A stretch of DNA of 64,000 bases from Acuticoccus sp. I52.16.1 (lineage in GTDB: Bacteria > Pseudomonadota > Alphaproteobacteria > Rhizobiales > Amorphaceae). The stretch is from contig NZ_CP094828.1 in assembly GCF_022865125.1 (NCBI RefSeq), positions 1,364,001-1,428,000 on the forward strand, given 5' to 3'. Positions 17,649-26,016 of the stretch are shown piece after piece. The notes under the pieces are model-generated. The model was not told where the DNA came from, made no database searches, and was given only the letters and a program-made list of their open reading frames with translations. The stretch's first letter is position 1. Every line of letters begins with the position of its first letter. A program made the translations under genes and the position numbers.

Positions 17649-18926
17649 TCAGCCCCGTCGCGAGCGGGAGGCGGGGGCGAGGATGCCGGCGTCGAGGGCG
17701 GCGAGGGAGCCGAGCCCGAGCATCGCCATGTCGCGATCGACCTCGGCGGCGAGGATCGCGGCGGCGTGGCGCACGCCGAGCGTACCGGCGACGGCGGCCG
17801 CGAACAGGAAGGGCCGGCCGACGAAGGCGAAGTCCGCCCCCAGCGCCAGCGCCCGCAGGACGTCCGAACCGCGCCGCACGCCGCTGTCGAGCATCACCGC
17901 CATGTCGCCCGCGGCGGCCTTCACCGCCGGAAGCGCGGCGATGGCGCTGAGCGAGCCGTCGAGCTGACGGCCCCCGTGGTTGGAGACGACGATGCCGTCG
18001 GCGCCGATGTCGCGCGCGCGGGCCGCGTCCTCCGGCGCGATCACGCCCTTGATGACGAGCTTGCCGGGGAAGGTCCGGCGCACCAGCTCGGCGTGATGCC
18101 AGGAAAGCGTCGCACGGCCGGCGAAGGAGCGCACCACGTCGCGCGCGACGATGGGCGGGCCGCGGGTGACGTCCTGGTTCTCGAAGTGGGGAACGCCGTG
18201 GGTGAGAAGCGTGCGGGCGAAGGTGCCGAAGACCCAGCCCGGCCGCGTCGCCCCCTGCAGGAAGAGATCGAGGCTCGGCTTCATCGGCGCGCCGAAGTTG
18301 TCGCGCTTGGAATCCTCGCGGTTGCCGGCGACGGGGACGTCCCCGGTCATCACCAGCACCTCGTAGCCGGCGGCGGCGATGCGCTCCACCATCGGCACGA
18401 CGCGCGCGTCGTCGCCCGGCAAATAGGCCTGGTACCAGCGGCTCGGCCCTTCGGCGGCGACCCGCTCCATCGCCGTCAGCGACGTGGCGCTCATCACCGC
18501 CGGGATCCCGGCCGCGGCGGCGCCCTTGGCGAGGGCGACGTCACCGTCGTAGGCGGCGAGCGCGGAGAGACCCATCGGCGAGATGCCGAAGGGGTGGGCG
18601 TAGGTCCGGCCGAACAGCGTGGTGCGCTGGTCGCGCGTGCCGTGACCGCCCAGCACCCGCGGCATCAGCCGCACCGCGTCGAAGTCGGCGCGGTTGCGGG
18701 CCATGGCGACGGTGTCGTCCGACCCGCCGGCTACGTAGGAGTAGACGCCGCGCGGCAGCTTGCGCCGCGCGACCCGTTCGAAATCGTCGAGGTTGAAGAC
18801 CCGGCGCAGCGCCCGCGGCAACGCCTCGTGCGGCCGCTTCTCGATCGCGGGGTCCGAGCGCGCCGGGGCATCCCCGGCGCGGGCCGCCGCCGGGTCGGGA
18901 CGCGCGGTGGCGGCCTCTTCGCTCAC
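17649..18926 (-). CDS. FMN-dependent alpha-hydroxyacid dehydrogenase/oxidase
   Basis: 425 residues from a GTG that overlaps the stop of the preceding RraA-like gene (GTGA). Family hallmarks are the N-terminal LDDFERVARRKLPRGVYSYVAGG, FMN-binding GISPMGLSALA, the QAYLPGD strand, the catalytic SNHGGRQLDGS with base histidine and substrate arginine, and DSGVRRGSD near the end. The enzyme oxidises an L-2-hydroxyacid (lactate, glycolate or mandelate type) to the 2-oxoacid. The first 40 or so residues are a charged extension without homology. It is the last gene of a four-gene minus-strand operon divergent from a tripartite carboxylate transporter. Confidence 0.88.
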   Translation of the reverse strand: MSEEAATARPDPAAARAGDAPARSDPAIEKRPHEALPRALRRVFNLDDFERVARRKLPRGVYSYVAGGSDDTVAMARNRADFDAVRLMPRVLGGHGTRDQRTTLFGRTYAHPFGISPMGLSALAAYDGDVALAKGAAAAGIPAVMSATSLTAMERVAAEGPSRWYQAYLPGDDARVVPMVERIAAAGYEVLVMTGDVPVAGNREDSKRDNFGAPMKPSLDLFLQGATRPGWVFGTFARTLLTHGVPHFENQDVTRGPPIVARDVVRSFAGRATLSWHHAELVRRTFPGKLVIKGVIAPEDAARARDIGADGIVVSNHGGRQLDGSLSAIAALPAVKAAAGDMAVMLDSGVRRGSDVLRALALGADFAFVGRPFLFAAAVAGTLGVRHAAAILAAEVDRDMAMLGLGSLAALDAGILAPASRSRRG

Positions 18927-19603
18927 GCCTCGAACTCGCAGCCCCGCGCTTCCAGCGTCTTGTCGACCCAGGCGCGGTCCTGCGTGCCGGCGGCGATCGC
19001 CTCGAACTCGCGCCCCTCGGCCGCTTTCTTGGCCTCGGACGCCGCGAGCACCGTCTCGGCCTCGGCGTAGGGCACGCACAGCATGCCGTCGCCGTCGCCG
19101 ATGACGAGGTCGCCCGGCTCGATGATCATGCCGTCGATCGCGACCGGCACGTTGATCTCGCCCGGCCCGTCCTTGTAGGGCCCGCGGTGGGTGACGCCGG
19201 CGGCGAACATACCGATGCCCGATTCGCGGATCTCGTCCACGTCGCGGATCGCCCCGTCGATCACGAAGCCGACGATGCCGGCCTTCTTGCCGATCGTCGT
19301 CATGATGTCGCCGAGGATGGAGTTGGTGAGATCGCCGCCCGCGTCGACGACGATGACGTCGCCCGGCCCGGCCATGTCCAGCGCCTTGTGCACCATGAGA
19401 TTGTCGCCCGGCCGCGTCTTCACGGTGAGGGCGACGCCGGCGAAGCGGGTCCCCTCCTTGTGGTAGGGGCGCAGGCGCGCGCCGCCGGCGGTCATGCGCC
19501 ACATCGAGTCGGAGACGTTGGCGACGGGGAGCGCGGCGAAGCGCTCGACGATGGCCGCGGGGACGGTGCGTTTGCGCTTCATCACGCGGAAACCGATGGT
19601 CAT
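18923..19603 (-). CDS. RraA-like protein (4-hydroxy-4-methyl-2-oxoglutarate aldolase family)
   Basis: 226 residues; AAGGAGG lies six bases before the ATG, one of the strongest ribosome sites here. The RraA fold is marked by VANVSDSMWRM, the GDVIVVDAGG strand and the catalytic/metal part GFVIDGAIRDVDEI near residue 115, where the Arg and Asp of the active aldolases are kept. Retention of these residues and the operon with a hydroxyacid oxidase and dehydrogenase favour an aldolase or oxaloacetate-decarboxylase-like role over inhibition of RNase E. Confidence 0.85.
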   Translation of the reverse strand: MTIGFRVMKRKRTVPAAIVERFAALPVANVSDSMWRMTAGGARLRPYHKEGTRFAGVALTVKTRPGDNLMVHKALDMAGPGDVIVVDAGGDLTNSILGDIMTTIGKKAGIVGFVIDGAIRDVDEIRESGIGMFAAGVTHRGPYKDGPGEINVPVAIDGMIIEPGDLVIGDGDGMLCVPYAEAETVLAASEAKKAAEGREFEAIAAGTQDRAWVDKTLEARGCEFEA

Positions 19604-19639: not shown

Positions 19640-20548
19640 TCAGGCGTCGACGGATTGGAGAGCGGCGAGAACCTTGTCGACGACGGCGGTGCCGACGTTG
19701 AGGAGGGCACGGTGGGTCTGCGCGCCCGCGTGCGGCGTCGCGACGAAGTTGGGGGCGGCGAGGAGCGGGCTCTGGAAGCTCGGCTCCGCCTCGAAGACGT
19801 CGGACGCGGCGCCGGCGAGGCGGCCGTCGTGGAGCGCGGCGGCGAGGGCCGCCTCGTCGACGATCCCGCCGCGGGCGCAGTTGACGAGGAAGGCCCCCGG
19901 CCGCATCCGCGCGATCCGGTCCGCGTCGATCAGGTGGCGCGTCTCGTCGTCGAGCGGGACATGCAGGAAGACGACGCGCGATTCGGCGAGCAGCGCGTCG
20001 AGGCTTTCGACGCGGCGCACGCCCTCCGGCCACCGCTCCAGGTAGGGATCGAAAGCGGCGACCGGGGCGCCGAAACCGCCGATCAGCCGGCGCGCGACGC
20101 GGCTGCCGATGGCGCCGAGGCCGACGATGCCGGCTTCCATCTCGCCGACTTCGTAGCCGCGGTGCTGCGGGCCGCGCTGCGCCTCGCCGGCGCGCAGTGC
20201 GTCGGTGTGCTGGACGAGGCGGCGCGACAGCGCCAACGCCATCGTCAGCGCCAGGTCCGCCACCGAATCGGCGTTGACGCCGGGGGTGGAGCGCACCGCG
20301 AGGCCGGCCGCCTCGCACGCCGCGACGTCGATATTGTCGAGCCCGGCGCCGTGCTTGGCGACGACGCGCAGGCGCGGCGCGGCGGCGACGTCGGCGGCGG
20401 TGATCGGGTGGGCGCGCACGATCACCGCATCGGCCACGTCGCGCCAATGATCGGCCTCGCCGGGGCCGAGGACGTCGGCGTGCCGGGCGAGGCGGTCCAT
20501 CGCCTGCTGATGGATGGGGTCGAGTACGGCGACGACGGGGCGGCTCAT
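19640..20548 (-). CDS. D-isomer specific 2-hydroxyacid dehydrogenase (SerA/GyaR-like)
   Basis: 302 residues with AGGAGAGG upstream of the ATG. The NAD motif GLGAIGSRVARR near residue 140, and the catalytic set Arg in NCARGGIVDE, Glu in DVFEAEP and His in TPHAGAQT are all present. It interconverts a D-2-hydroxyacid and a 2-oxoacid, with phosphoglycerate, glyoxylate and hydroxypyruvate reductases as closest known types. Its start overlaps the stop of a small upstream ORF, so the two are probably translated together. Confidence 0.88.
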   Translation of the reverse strand: MSRPVVAVLDPIHQQAMDRLARHADVLGPGEADHWRDVADAVIVRAHPITAADVAAAPRLRVVAKHGAGLDNIDVAACEAAGLAVRSTPGVNADSVADLALTMALALSRRLVQHTDALRAGEAQRGPQHRGYEVGEMEAGIVGLGAIGSRVARRLIGGFGAPVAAFDPYLERWPEGVRRVESLDALLAESRVVFLHVPLDDETRHLIDADRIARMRPGAFLVNCARGGIVDEAALAAALHDGRLAGAASDVFEAEPSFQSPLLAAPNFVATPHAGAQTHRALLNVGTAVVDKVLAALQSVDA

Positions 20549-20799
20549 CGGGCCTCTCCTGCGAGCCAGCGGGCTGTTCTGGCGGTGTCGGGACGGGGGG
20601 ACGGCGCGGCGCCGGCGAGACGGCCGGCGGTGACGCGGAAGCGGGCGAGGACGGCGGCGGACGGACCGGCATCGAGTTGGTGCGCGGCGGGTGGGCGACC
20701 AGTCTCGCCGTAGTGGGCGAGCCGGACGCGTGTCGCTCCCTCCTTCGGCGCATCGAGGCCGGGCGAATTCTGCACGTCCCTCGCGTTTCCTGCGGCCAT
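20545..20799 (-). CDS. Small protein of unknown function, first gene of hydroxyacid operon
   Basis: 84 residues, not matching any family I recognise. Support for coding: GGGAGG seven bases before the ATG at 20799, GC-rich third positions, and a TGA that overlaps the ATG of the dehydrogenase (ATGA). The sequence is rich in Ala, Arg and Pro with a single predicted basic stretch and no membrane segment. It may act as a leader that couples translation of the dehydrogenase rather than as an enzyme. Confidence 0.5.
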   Translation of the reverse strand: MAAGNARDVQNSPGLDAPKEGATRVRLAHYGETGRPPAAHQLDAGPSAAVLARFRVTAGRLAGAAPSPRPDTARTARWLAGEAR

Positions 20800-20823
20800 C
20801 GCGATCCTCCCGTGGCTCTCTTT

Positions 20824-20849
20824 TCCGTACAGAAAAAATACAAAACGGA
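20824..20849. promoter_or_regulatory. Inverted repeat in divergent control region
   Basis: TCCGT and ACGGA arms separated by 16 A-rich bases, 25 bases before the small ORF start. The AT-rich core contrasts with the surroundings. It may be an operator for the GntR regulator at 24234 or part of the minus-strand promoter. Confidence 0.3.
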
Positions 20850-20967
20850 GTGGGAGCGCAATCCCTGCGGTGGTGCCGAGCGTCAGTTTGTTTCGCCAAG
20901 CCGGGAGGTATTCCTGGCGTTTATTGCGCCCATAGGCGCACCGGATTGCATTTCCGTGCCGAAGCTC

Positions 20968-20995
20968 TTGCCCCGTGCATTTGGGTTCGTATAGC
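20968..20995 (+). promoter_or_regulatory. Possible promoter of the tctCBA operon
   Basis: TTGCCC at 20968-20973 and TATAGC at 20990-20995 with a 16-base spacer, each matching 4 of 6 consensus bases, 72 bases before the tctC start. Confidence 0.35.
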
Positions 20996-21066
20996 GTTGT
21001 TCGTGTCCAAAAAGCGGGGCCAGCGGCGATCAACGCCGTGGTCGATCGTCTCGATTGGGAGGGACC

Positions 21067-22032
21067 ATGAAGAAATCCATCGCGCTCGCCGCAACCCTTG
21101 CGGCGTCGGTCGCCGCCACGTCCGCATACGCGGAATATCCCGAGCGGCCCATCACCATGATCGTCGCCTACAGCGCCGGCGGCGGCACCGACATCGCCGC
21201 CCGCACCCTCGTCCCCTTCATCGAGAAGGAGCTCGGCGACGGCGCGTCGATCACCGTCGTGAACCGTCCGGGCGCCGGCGGCGAGATCGGCTTCACCGCC
21301 CTCGCCCAGGCCAAGCCCGACGGCTACACCATCGGCTTCATCAACACGCCGAACCTCCTGTCGATCCCGATCCAGCGCAAGGCGCGCTACGACATCGACA
21401 GCTTCGCCCCGATCGCCAACATCATCTACGATCCGGGCGCGTTCAGCCTGCGTCCCGACGAGGGCATCTCCACCCTCGACGAGCTGGTCGCCTTCGCCAA
21501 GGAGCATCCGGGCGAGGTCACCTACGGCACCACCGGCATCGGCTCCGACGATCACCTCGCCGCGCTCAACTTCGAGCGTCTGGCCGGCGTCAAGTTCGAG
21601 CACATCCCCTTCTCCGGCAACGCCGACGTGCGCGCCGCGGTCATCGGCGGCCACGTCATGATGGCCTCGATGAACGTCTCCGAGACGGTGCAGGACGTCG
21701 ACGACGGCACGCTGGTGCTGCTGGGCCAGATGTCCGAGGAGCGCTGGGAAGGCGCGCCGGACGTGCCGACCTTCCAGGAGCAGGGCTACGACGTGATCAT
21801 GGGCTCCAACCGTGGCATGGCCGCCCCCGCCGGCGTCGACGCCGCGGAGTTGCAGACGCTGTCCGACGCGGTCGGTCGCGCCGTCGCCAACCCGGAGTTC
21901 CGCGCCGCGGCGGCCAAGCAGGACCTCGCCCTCGCCTTCCAGGACCGCGAGTCCTTCCGCACCTCGCTCGAGCGGCTCGATTCCACGCTGCAGACGCTGT
22001 GGAAGGAAGAGCCCTGGGTCGCCAACGACTGA
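21067..22032 (+). CDS. tctC: Tripartite tricarboxylate transporter binding protein (TctC family)
   Basis: 321 residues; GGGAGGG is four bases before the ATG. Residues 1-22 form a signal peptide ending AYA. The mature start YPERPITMIVAYSAGGGTDIAAR is the TctC signature that forms the carboxylate-binding loop, followed by VVNRPGAGGEIGF. It binds a carboxylate in the periplasm. A stable stem-loop follows immediately, before tctB. Companion genes on the opposite strand (2-hydroxyacid enzymes, RraA-like aldolase) suggest a hydroxy-carboxylate ligand. Confidence 0.92.
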   Translation: MKKSIALAATLAASVAATSAYAEYPERPITMIVAYSAGGGTDIAARTLVPFIEKELGDGASITVVNRPGAGGEIGFTALAQAKPDGYTIGFINTPNLLSIPIQRKARYDIDSFAPIANIIYDPGAFSLRPDEGISTLDELVAFAKEHPGEVTYGTTGIGSDDHLAALNFERLAGVKFEHIPFSGNADVRAAVIGGHVMMASMNVSETVQDVDDGTLVLLGQMSEERWEGAPDVPTFQEQGYDVIMGSNRGMAAPAGVDAAELQTLSDAVGRAVANPEFRAAAAKQDLALAFQDRESFRTSLERLDSTLQTLWKEEPWVAND

Positions 22033-22038
22033 CCCACA

Positions 22039-22057
22039 CCGCCCCTTCGCGGGGCGG
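22039..22057 (+). other. Intergenic stem-loop between tctC and tctB
   Basis: A perfect 7-bp GC stem CCGCCCC/GGGGCGG with loop TTCGC starts 6 bases after the tctC stop and has no T tract. Its likely effect is to protect the tctC message or reduce read-through so that more binding protein than permease is made. Confidence 0.5.
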
Positions 22058-22238
22058 CAGCGGCCGGGGGCGGCACACGCCGCGCCCGGCCTAGCCCGAC
22101 AGGCACGATGCCCGCGGGCGACGTCGACGACGGCATCGTCCTCGGCGGCGGACCCGCCAACACGGGCCGCCGCGACGAGCACCAAGAAGCCGGCAAACGG
22201 CTCGGACACGACCTATCGACATATTCCGGGAGGGGCTG

Positions 22239-22700
22239 ATGGCGAACAGAGCTGCCATCGAACTCGCGACGGCGCTCGGCGTCGGCGCGATATCGGTTTT
22301 GGGGGTGATCGAGGCGGCGGGGTATCGCGGCGCCTCCTCCTACATGCCGTTGGCGGTGACGGGCTTCGCCGCGGCGCTCTCGGCGGTCTGGGCGACGCAA
22401 TCGGCCCTCGCGCTCTCACGCGGCACGGGGGTGCGGGTGACGCTCGACCGCGGCCTTCTCCTGCGTTTCGCCATCATCGTCGCGGCCGTGATCGGCTATG
22501 TCCTCGCCGTCACCTATGTCGGCTTCTTCACCGCCACGCTGATCATGGTGCCGGGGCTGTCGTTCCTCATCGGCTACCGCAACCTGCCGGTGGCGCTGAT
22601 CACGTCGGCGGGCTTCTGCGTGGTCCTCTACGGCGTTTTCCGGCTGCTGCTGTCGATCCCGCTGCCGCCCGAGACGCTCCTCCAAGCCCTGGGCCTGTGA
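22239..22700 (+). CDS. tctB: Tripartite tricarboxylate transporter small membrane subunit (TctB family)
   Basis: 153 residues with four hydrophobic segments and little sequence conservation, as is usual for TctB. GGGAGGGG lies three to ten bases before the ATG. It is 206 bases after tctC and 4 bases before tctA, so identity rests on size, topology and position. Confidence 0.85.
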   Translation: MANRAAIELATALGVGAISVLGVIEAAGYRGASSYMPLAVTGFAAALSAVWATQSALALSRGTGVRVTLDRGLLLRFAIIVAAVIGYVLAVTYVGFFTATLIMVPGLSFLIGYRNLPVALITSAGFCVVLYGVFRLLLSIPLPPETLLQALGL

Positions 22701-22704
22701 TCCG

Positions 22705-24237
22705 ATGGACATGATTTCCCCGATCCTCGACGCTGCGCCCGCCGTCTTCGCGCCCAGTGTCGTCATCGCGATGATCGTCGGCGTGGTCGTCGGCATCTCG
22801 GTGGGCGCGCTGCCCGGCCTGTCGGCCACCATGGGCATCGCTGTCCTCATCCCGCTGACCTTCGCGATGGAGCCGCTCGTCGCGCTCGGCATGATCGCCG
22901 GCATCTACAACGGGGCGATGTACGGCGGGTCGATCCCGGCGATCCTGCTCCGCATCCCCGGCACGCCGGCCGGCATCGCCACCGTGTTCGACGGGCACGA
23001 GATGGCCAAGAAGGGCGAGGCACGCCTGGCGCTCGACATCTCGCTGGCCTCGTCCTCGCTGGGCAGCGCGGTGTCGGCGCTCGCGCTCCTCTTCCTGGCG
23101 CCGCCGCTGGCGGCCATCGCGCTGAAGTTCTCGCCGGCGGACTACTTCTGGCTGGCGCTCTTCGGGCTCACGACGATCTCGGTGCTCCTCGCCGGCAATC
23201 CGGCCAAGGGCTTCCTGTCGGCCTCCTTCGGCCTCGTCCTCGGCATGGTCGGCATCGACAGCCTGACCGGCGCCGAGCGCTTCACCTTCGGCACGCTGGA
23301 TCTGCTTTCGGGGATCGACATCATCGTCCTCCTCACCGGCCTCTACGCCATCCCCCCGGCGATCGACCTGATGCTTGGCGGCGAGGCGCTCACCAAGGGC
23401 AGTCTCTCGCTCGGCAACAAGCGCACGCCGTTCCGCTGGCGCACGCTGATCCCGGTGTGGATCCGCAGCTCTCTGATCGGCCTCTTCGTCGGCATCATCC
23501 CGGCGCTCGGCGGCAACATCGCGGCGCTTCTGGCCTGGAACGAGCAGCGCCGCGTCACCAAGGACAAGGCCAATTACGGCAAGGGCATGCCTGAGGGCCT
23601 CGCCGCCCCCGAGTGCGCCAACAACGCCGACACCGGCGCCACGCTGATCCCGGCGCTGACCTTGGGCGTGCCGGGCAACGCCGTCGCCGCGGTCATCCTC
23701 GGCGCGCTGCTGGTGCACGGCCTTCGCCCCGGCCCGGAGCTCTTCCGCGCCGACGCCGACACCGTCTACGGCTTCATGCTGACGATGCTGGTGACGGCGG
23801 GCCTGATGTTCGTCATCGGCAAGATCGGCGCGCGGGCGTTCATCAACGTCCTGCGGATGCCGTCGCGCATCCTGGGCCCGATGATCATCGCGCTCACCAC
23901 CGTCGGCGTCTACGCGGTCCACAACTCGATGTTCGAGGTGTGGCTGATGCTGGCGTTCGGTGCGGTCGGTTACGGCATGGAGAAGCTCGACATTCCCACG
24001 GCACCGGCGGTGCTGGCGGTGATCCTGGGGCCGATGGCGGAGGAATCGTTCCGCCGTGCGCTGCTGATCGGCCGCGGCGACCCGCTCTACTTCGTCGCCG
24101 GACCGATCTCGTGGGTGCTGATCGCACTGATCGTGCTCACGGTGCTGACACCGGCGTGGCGGGCCTGGCGCAGCCGCCGGGGTGCCGGTGACGATGCCGC
24201 TCCCGACGACGGCGGCGAGGCGACGAGCGCCGGATGA
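22705..24237 (+). CDS. tctA: Tripartite tricarboxylate transporter large permease (TctA family)
   Basis: 510 residues with about 12 membrane segments. The TctA signature GALPGLSATMGIAVLIPLTF (residues 33-52) and its inverted-repeat counterpart with the GIIPALGGNIAALLAW stretch are visible, as are YGGSIPAILLRIPGTPA and the second PGNAVAA loop. It is the channel subunit for carboxylate uptake driven by an ion gradient. The stop overlaps the start of the GntR gene (ATGA). Confidence 0.95.
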   Translation: MDMISPILDAAPAVFAPSVVIAMIVGVVVGISVGALPGLSATMGIAVLIPLTFAMEPLVALGMIAGIYNGAMYGGSIPAILLRIPGTPAGIATVFDGHEMAKKGEARLALDISLASSSLGSAVSALALLFLAPPLAAIALKFSPADYFWLALFGLTTISVLLAGNPAKGFLSASFGLVLGMVGIDSLTGAERFTFGTLDLLSGIDIIVLLTGLYAIPPAIDLMLGGEALTKGSLSLGNKRTPFRWRTLIPVWIRSSLIGLFVGIIPALGGNIAALLAWNEQRRVTKDKANYGKGMPEGLAAPECANNADTGATLIPALTLGVPGNAVAAVILGALLVHGLRPGPELFRADADTVYGFMLTMLVTAGLMFVIGKIGARAFINVLRMPSRILGPMIIALTTVGVYAVHNSMFEVWLMLAFGAVGYGMEKLDIPTAPAVLAVILGPMAEESFRRALLIGRGDPLYFVAGPISWVLIALIVLTVLTPAWRAWRSRRGAGDDAAPDDGGEATSAG

Positions 24238-24991: not shown

Positions 24992-25066
24992 GGAATGAAT
25001 CGCTGTGGGATTCCCGAATCAGCGGAAGTCTGATTCAGCATCATGGCTGGCGATGGGGGGCCAGTC

Positions 25067-26016
25067 ATGATGCCCAAGCTGCTCTCTGAGGATCTTCGCC
25101 TTCGCGTGGTTCGCGCCATCGACGATGGAATGTCCCGCCGGCAGGCCGCGGCGCGGTTCGAGGTCGCCCCGTCCACGGCGATCCGATGGTACGAGGCTTG
25201 GCAACGCACCGGCTCATGCCGCGCCAAGCGCCAGGGCGGCGACCGCTGGTCCCACGTCACCGAAGCCCACGCCGAGCGCATCCTCGCGATCCTGGACGGC
25301 ACCGGCGACATCACCCTGGTCGAGCTGAAGGCAAGGCTCGGTGAGAGCGGCGGCACGGTCTCCATCTCGGCGCTGTCGCGCTTCTTCCGTCGCCACGGGA
25401 TCACGCGCAAAAAAAGACCGGCCACGCGGCCGAGCAGGACCGCGCGGATGTCCTTGCCCGGCGGCACGCCTGGTTCGACGGGCAGGACGAGCTCGACGCC
25501 GAGCGCCTGATCTTCATCGACGAGACCTGGGCCAACACGAAGATGGCCCGCACCCACGGCCGCTGCGCCCGGGGGACAAGGCTGCGCATGCCGCTGCCGT
25601 TCGGCCATTGGAAGACGACCACGCTGGTCGCCGGGCTCTCGCTGTCCGGGATCGTCGCGCCTATGGTGCTCGACCGGGCGATCAACGGCGTATGGTTCGA
25701 GACCTACGTGGAGCAGGTTCTCGCACCATGCCTGTCGCCGGGCGACGTCGTCGTGATGGACAACCTCGGCAGTCACAAGGGTTGGCGCGTTCGCGACCTG
25801 ATCGAGAGCGCCGGGGCGAGGCTCGTGTTCCTCCCGCCCTACAGCCCCGACTTCAACCCGATCGAGATGGCCTTCGCCAAGATCAAGGCGCTCCTTCGAA
25901 AGGCGGCGGAGCGAACCGTCGATGACCTGTGGGACCGCATCGGCGCGGTCCTCGACCTCGTCACGCCAGACGAAGCCCGAGCCTACTTCCGAGCCGCCGG
26001 CTATGACCCGGACTGA
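25067..26016 (+). CDS. IS630-family transposase made by -1 frameshift
   Basis: The first frame (from ATG 25067; ATG 25070 and 25043 are also in frame) encodes the helix-turn-helix part, MPKLLSEDLRLRVVRAIDDG through FFRRHGITRKK. It would end at 25510. The second frame, open from before the A7 tract at 25409-25415, continues as KTGHAAEQDRADVLARRH and carries the DDE catalytic set: FIDETW, VVMDNLGSHK and the PPYSPDFNPIEM motif. The sequence at the tract, CGC AAA AAA AGA, allows a one-base backward slip. Frameshift production is well known for this IS group, so this is a functional design rather than a pseudogene. Confidence 0.85.

Follow-up and report, generated by a model that had tools for sequence, protein, structure and literature searches.

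What is the 84-codon open reading frame (ORF) that lies directly 5' of a hydroxyacid dehydrogenase gene in Acuticoccus sp. I52.16.1? It runs from 20799 to 20545 on the minus strand of the window (the whole 64,000-nucleotide stretch of DNA that was analysed), from an ATG start to a TGA stop, and encodes 84 amino acids. The first-pass annotation argued that it is translated, given a strong ribosome site and an overlap with the dehydrogenase gene, stated that it matches no known family, and proposed either a leader for coupled translation or a new small protein. The ORF, its ribosome site, and its ATGA overlap with the dehydrogenase gene are all present as it described them. Judging from comparisons of related loci, the ORF is very probably the relict of the first gene of a catabolic operon, a gene for a 6-phosphogluconate-dehydrogenase-like NAD(P)-binding/DUF1932 oxidoreductase. 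Ordinary genome decay, rather than a new protein family, is the most likely explanation, because relatives still carry the larger enzyme gene whole at the same spot. The features of the ORF are as follows.

20545 to 20799, minus strand: the 84-codon ORF, very probably what remains of a gene for a DUF1932 NAD(P)-binding oxidoreductase after an in-frame internal deletion
20545 to 20548, minus strand: ATGA stop/start overlap between the ORF and the dehydrogenase gene, with the same ATGA in all three intact relatives
20548 to 20679, minus strand: C-terminal part of the ORF, residues 41 to 84, homologous to the final 45 residues of the intact A. mangrovi protein
20680 to 20799, minus strand: N-terminal part of the ORF, residues 1 to 40, in which V-x4-YGE-x-G weakly resembles the start of a Rossmann fold
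20806 to 20810, minus strand: Shine-Dalgarno sequence GGAGG of the ORF, 6 nucleotides 5' of its ATG and equivalent in place to that of the intact A. mangrovi gene
20827 to 20845, minus strand: conserved upstream element, TTTTGTATTTTTTCTGTAC

Searched directly, the ORF product matched no Pfam or NCBIfam family at E ≤ 1, and in the PDB no match had an E-value below 0.37. Among the eight genomes of the genus, a protein match at E ≤ 0.001 was found in its own genome only, the seven congeners being negative. An Rfam scan of positions 20400-21200 returned 0 matches. Four weak matches on plasmids (E 3 to 8) were taken as chance; of the two that were inspected, one is antisense to a gene and the other lies in an unannotated stretch. 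That the ORF is open is weak evidence of coding, because an 83-codon stretch of its base composition is free of stops with a probability of ~0.36, and the remaining two frames on the same strand also have no stop. The 84-residue ORF shares its frame with a stop-free stretch of 555 codons (20545-22209, minus strand) that lies antisense to TctC. This long stretch is probably a shadow of GC-rich coding that would mislead ORF callers.

The genes around the ORF are the following.

19640 to 20548, minus strand: D-isomer-specific 2-hydroxyacid dehydrogenase (PF02826, E 1.6e-54; PF00389, E 1.5e-21), the downstream gene, with its own AGGAG 7 nucleotides 5' of its ATG
18923 to 19603, minus strand: RraA-like aldolase family protein (PF03737, NF004850)
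17649 to 18860, minus strand: FMN-dependent alpha-hydroxyacid dehydrogenase (PF01070), start not fixed
21067 to 22032, plus strand: TctC transporter receptor gene, divergent
22239 to 22700: TctB, after TctC
22705 to 24237: TctA, after TctB

A GntR/FCD regulator stands beyond TctC, TctB, and TctA. Elsewhere in the window, two consecutive plus-strand ORFs at 25043-26016 have HTH and DDE_3 matches and look like a transposase in two frames, which we take to be of IS630 type, the HTH_Tnp_IS630 match being below threshold.

Orthologues of the dehydrogenase, with 57 to 59% identity, occur in three of the seven other genomes of the genus, namely A. kalidii (G001), A. mangrovi (G002), and the congener G005. 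Outside the genus, no orthologue at E ≤ 1e-75 turned up among 397 sampled genomes of the order and 385 of the class, a search that scored just the top few first-look candidates of each genome. A scan of the wider collection yielded 168 relatives of the dehydrogenase, of which the best 80 were chosen and all examined; four of these are at least 57% identical to the window's enzyme, and belong to A. kalidii, A. mangrovi, Salinarimonas rosea, and Roseivivax halodurans. The genes for TctABC, the dehydrogenase, the RraA-like protein, and the FMN-dependent dehydrogenase are common to the window, A. kalidii, A. mangrovi, G005, Salinarimonas, and Roseivivax, with TctA running off the end of the locus in two of the five comparison loci. 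The dehydrogenases of these five other genomes are all 57 to 59% identical to that of the window. A DUF1932 relative is held by 5 of the 80 examined loci (the best 80 of 168). One of them, in a distant Hyphomicrobiales metagenome-assembled genome (MAG), has a DUF1932 gene and an RraA gene between TctC and the dehydrogenase in a reordered cluster (L070:2265-3884, plus strand), and another MAG (L073) has a DUF1932 gene just 5' of a dehydrogenase.

In three of the six genomes with the cluster, an intact gene lies directly 5' of the dehydrogenase gene, where the window has its ORF. These are A. mangrovi (L036:7024-7896, minus strand; 291 residues), Salinarimonas rosea (L064; 293 residues), and Roseivivax halodurans (L063; 287 residues), the starts being those chosen in our analysis; the A. 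mangrovi gene can also be read as 309 amino acids. Each of the three overlaps the dehydrogenase gene by ATGA, and each encodes a protein that matches DUF1932 (PF09130), with E 1.1e-8, 4e-8, and 2.1e-7, respectively. The A. mangrovi protein also matches NAD_binding_2 (E 1.8e-8, residues 32-169 of the 309-residue reading) and the Salinarimonas protein matches NAD_binding_7 (E 3.2e-5); neither domain was detected in the Roseivivax protein at E ≤ 0.001. Structures matched by the A. mangrovi protein include 1i36, 4ezb, and 3qsg, the last of which is named an NAD-binding phosphogluconate-dehydrogenase-like protein. A literature search on DUF1932 returned nothing related by title.

The C-terminal part of the ORF is homologous to the end of this intact gene. 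BLASTP aligns residues 41-84 with the final 45 residues of the A. mangrovi protein, both sequences ending at the same residue, with 47% identity over 45 columns (E 4e-6, for a single comparison). Summed over the three intact C-termini, the ORF scores 183 versus a shuffle mean of 72, a score that none of 3000 shuffles and none of 11616 segments from the six frames of the window reached. When the ORF was used as query against ten genomes, its best match in A. mangrovi was the end of the syntenic gene (E 0.007); a match to residues 26-64 elsewhere, in G004, is slightly better (E 0.005). We also searched a profile of the three intact C-termini over four whole genomes, in six frames for the ORF's own genome. 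The ORF was the best match in that genome (E 1.7e-4, the next being 0.106), and in A. kalidii and G005 nothing was better than E 0.158 and no match lay at the locus. Two other alignments were not used for claims of homology: a two-sequence DNA alignment, in which the C-terminus was misplaced because of the large gap, and a global protein alignment, in which the N-terminal half was placed arbitrarily. The C-terminal tail and the genomic place together point to descent from a DUF1932 oxidoreductase gene. The earlier statement that the ORF matches no known family is thus accurate for direct searches of Pfam and NCBIfam, but not for its origin, which very probably lies in the end of a DUF1932 gene.

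The ORF resembles the intact gene in position, strand, ATGA overlap, and its C-terminal ~45 residues and, in the case of A. mangrovi and Salinarimonas, also in the upstream element. However, it has 84 residues rather than 287 to 293, and its codon pattern is flat. By Pfam, both the dinucleotide-binding Rossmann domain and the DUF1932 domain are absent from it; the latter occupies residues 211-280 of the A. mangrovi protein, of which the ORF coverage begins only at residue 265. As expected of a gene relict, it is homologous to an intact gene and lacks the essential parts. With the cofactor fold and the greater part of DUF1932 gone, the ORF product cannot work as an enzyme. No intact orthologue was found elsewhere in its own genome, where the best relative is 35% identical.

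The N-terminal half of the ORF carries the pattern V-x4-YGE-x-G where the intact proteins begin their Rossmann fold, and the score of residues 1-45 was reached by 95 of 3000 shuffles, so that this match to the intact protein is suggestive only. The start of the ORF is better supported by the upstream element. Its core, TTGTATTTTTT-N-TGTA, is exact in four of the seven loci tested (the window, A. mangrovi, Salinarimonas, and A. kalidii), has one change in G005, and is absent from Roseivivax and L070. From the end of the core to the start there are 28 nucleotides for the ORF, 30 for the A. mangrovi gene, and 47 for the chosen Salinarimonas start. The element occurs once in the ORF's whole genome, even when 2 mismatches are allowed, and is perhaps a putative operator or promoter of this cluster alone.

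Base composition bears on whether the ORF is still under coding constraint. Its G+C content at codon positions 1/2/3 is 79/68/76%, compared with 65-82/47-53/93-96% in five neighbouring genes, the dehydrogenase for example having 82/50/93%, and with 77/52/89% for the intact gene of A. mangrovi. The coding pattern of G+C is therefore lost, a caveat being that the flat pattern is read from 84 codons. Among 1581 overlapping 85-codon stretches of seven neighbouring genes, none has a GC3 or a GC3-GC2 as low as that of the ORF, and the N-terminal 40 codons alone are equalled in GC3-GC2 by 3 of 1896 stretches. The three intact genes contain no stretch as low in GC3-GC2; in GC3, 148 of 204 stretches of the Roseivivax gene are as low as the ORF. 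Differences between the ORF and the A. mangrovi gene at codon positions 1/2/3 are 35/47/42% (43 codons, a small sample), versus 27/29/39% for the dehydrogenase genes. The tail of the ORF is 49% identical in amino acids to that of A. mangrovi, and the intact A. mangrovi and Salinarimonas tails are 53% identical. Decay in the C-terminal block would thus be mild, as it is hardly more diverged than an intact pair, and some constraint on this block may persist. Because the G+C pattern is lost yet tail identity is near that of an intact pair, relaxed constraint on the ORF is supported by composition and, weakly, by divergence.

Where the intact gene would be, A. kalidii and G005 have only a short spacer; in A. 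kalidii, 132 nucleotides separate the conserved element from the start of the dehydrogenase gene. Both have the cluster but no DUF1932 gene, and nothing in them is recognisable as the ORF's counterpart. In A. kalidii, a stop 5 codons upstream of the ATGA closes the frame that runs into it. The corresponding G005 frame stays open for 70 codons and begins upstream of the element; counting from the first ATG beyond the element leaves 24 codons, and this ATG has no evident Shine-Dalgarno sequence. The G005 frame is unrelated in sequence to the ORF, a score as high being reached by 2271 of 3000 shuffles. We also sought traces of a decayed gene in the two spacers and claim none. One of three G005 frames scored against the intact C-termini at a level reached by 0 of 1000 residue shuffles; under better null models, however, the score is equalled or exceeded by 34 of 3000 Markov-resampled sequences and by 234 of 3000 genomic pieces, and the frame contains stops. 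The A. kalidii spacer gave nothing against the intact C-termini. The best of six spacer frames against the ORF itself, an A. kalidii frame, had a score reached by 18 of 2000 shuffles, which is weak after six tests.

One alternative accepts the relict origin, and its odds overlap with those of the explanation we favour. The decayed enzyme gene would have been reused, and kept by selection, as a translated leader that sets dehydrogenase output, with termination at the ATGA leading to re-initiation on the dehydrogenase gene. Such a candidate would be consistent with the strong Shine-Dalgarno sequence, the in-frame deletion, the retained ATGA, and the same overlap in all three intact relatives, and coupling at ATGA overlaps is documented as a general phenomenon (PMC6728339). 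Like ATGA-coupled upstream ORFs, the ORF combines a stop/start overlap with a strong upstream ribosome site, and the translation and coupling suggested in the first-pass annotation are plausible. Unlike them, its short form shows no sign of conservation. Stops or frameshifts in relatives had been named beforehand as the observation that would speak against the ORF, and the ORF is not kept in its congeners: in A. kalidii, which has the same cluster, the frame is closed, in G005 it is open but unrelated, and in A. mangrovi a full-length gene takes its place. Moreover, the dehydrogenase has an AGGAG of its own, and the codon pattern is flat, though a leader needs no particular peptide. We consider this reuse unlikely; if it is true, the in-frame deletion was kept because it saved the operon's ribosome entry while the enzyme was lost.

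The other alternatives are weaker still. The proposal of a new small protein, made functional from the deleted gene, could appeal to the open frame and to a C-terminal block that is no more diverged than expected, but the coding pattern is lost, codon-position differences depart from those of the dehydrogenase in the small sample available, most of both domains is gone, and the seven congeners have no similar ORF at E ≤ 0.001. The proposal is unsupported, given that the ORF ends, in its C-terminal half, like an oxidoreductase of an already known type (DUF1932), and we regard it as quite improbable. An ORF without ancestry, arisen by chance in GC-rich DNA, would readily explain an open frame where two others are just as open; the C-terminal homology, found at the same locus and in the frame that ends in the ATGA, and the reciprocal best hits across whole genomes contradict this reading and make it hardly credible. 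Equally hard to credit is an assembly error that collapsed an intact gene, since the remaining residues have themselves diverged, no intact copy was found elsewhere in the genome, and the assembly has six contigs and is 97.25% complete.

If the ORF is a relict, as we favour, a net in-frame loss of ~620 nucleotides (~207 residues) would have cost the gene its cofactor fold and the greater part of DUF1932. What was left over would be the old promoter region, the Shine-Dalgarno sequence, probably the start, and the 3' end with its ATGA overlap. The ORF would then have been made by deletion, its N-terminus would be the old one, and any peptide would presumably be functionless; the present comparisons revealed no signs of selection for the peptide. 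If the region is transcribed, ribosomes recruited at the inherited site would make an 84-residue peptide and arrive at the ATGA, from which the dehydrogenase could be started by re-initiation, or it could start from its own AGGAG.

The short form is seen in one genome only. In a tree built by concatenating five proteins of the cluster (four in the case of L070), the window, G005, and A. kalidii fall on one side, with support of 100 for this split and for the G005/A. kalidii pair, and the other side holds four loci with the DUF1932 gene (A. mangrovi, Salinarimonas, Roseivivax, and L070). This topology fits a single loss begun before the lineages of the window, G005, and A. kalidii parted, with a remnant surviving only in the window's genome, and two separate losses of the gene are also conceivable. 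The tree also groups the A. mangrovi cluster with that of Salinarimonas, apart from the other Acuticoccus clusters. This placement hints that the cluster may have been transferred between lineages.

With a relict origin, one seeming orphan small protein could be struck off the list, and the case would illustrate how such calls arise, as a relict inherits a convincing Shine-Dalgarno sequence and stop/start overlap from its parent gene. Such an origin further suggests that one group of Acuticoccus can do without the enzyme encoded first in this TctABC-linked hydroxyacid cluster.
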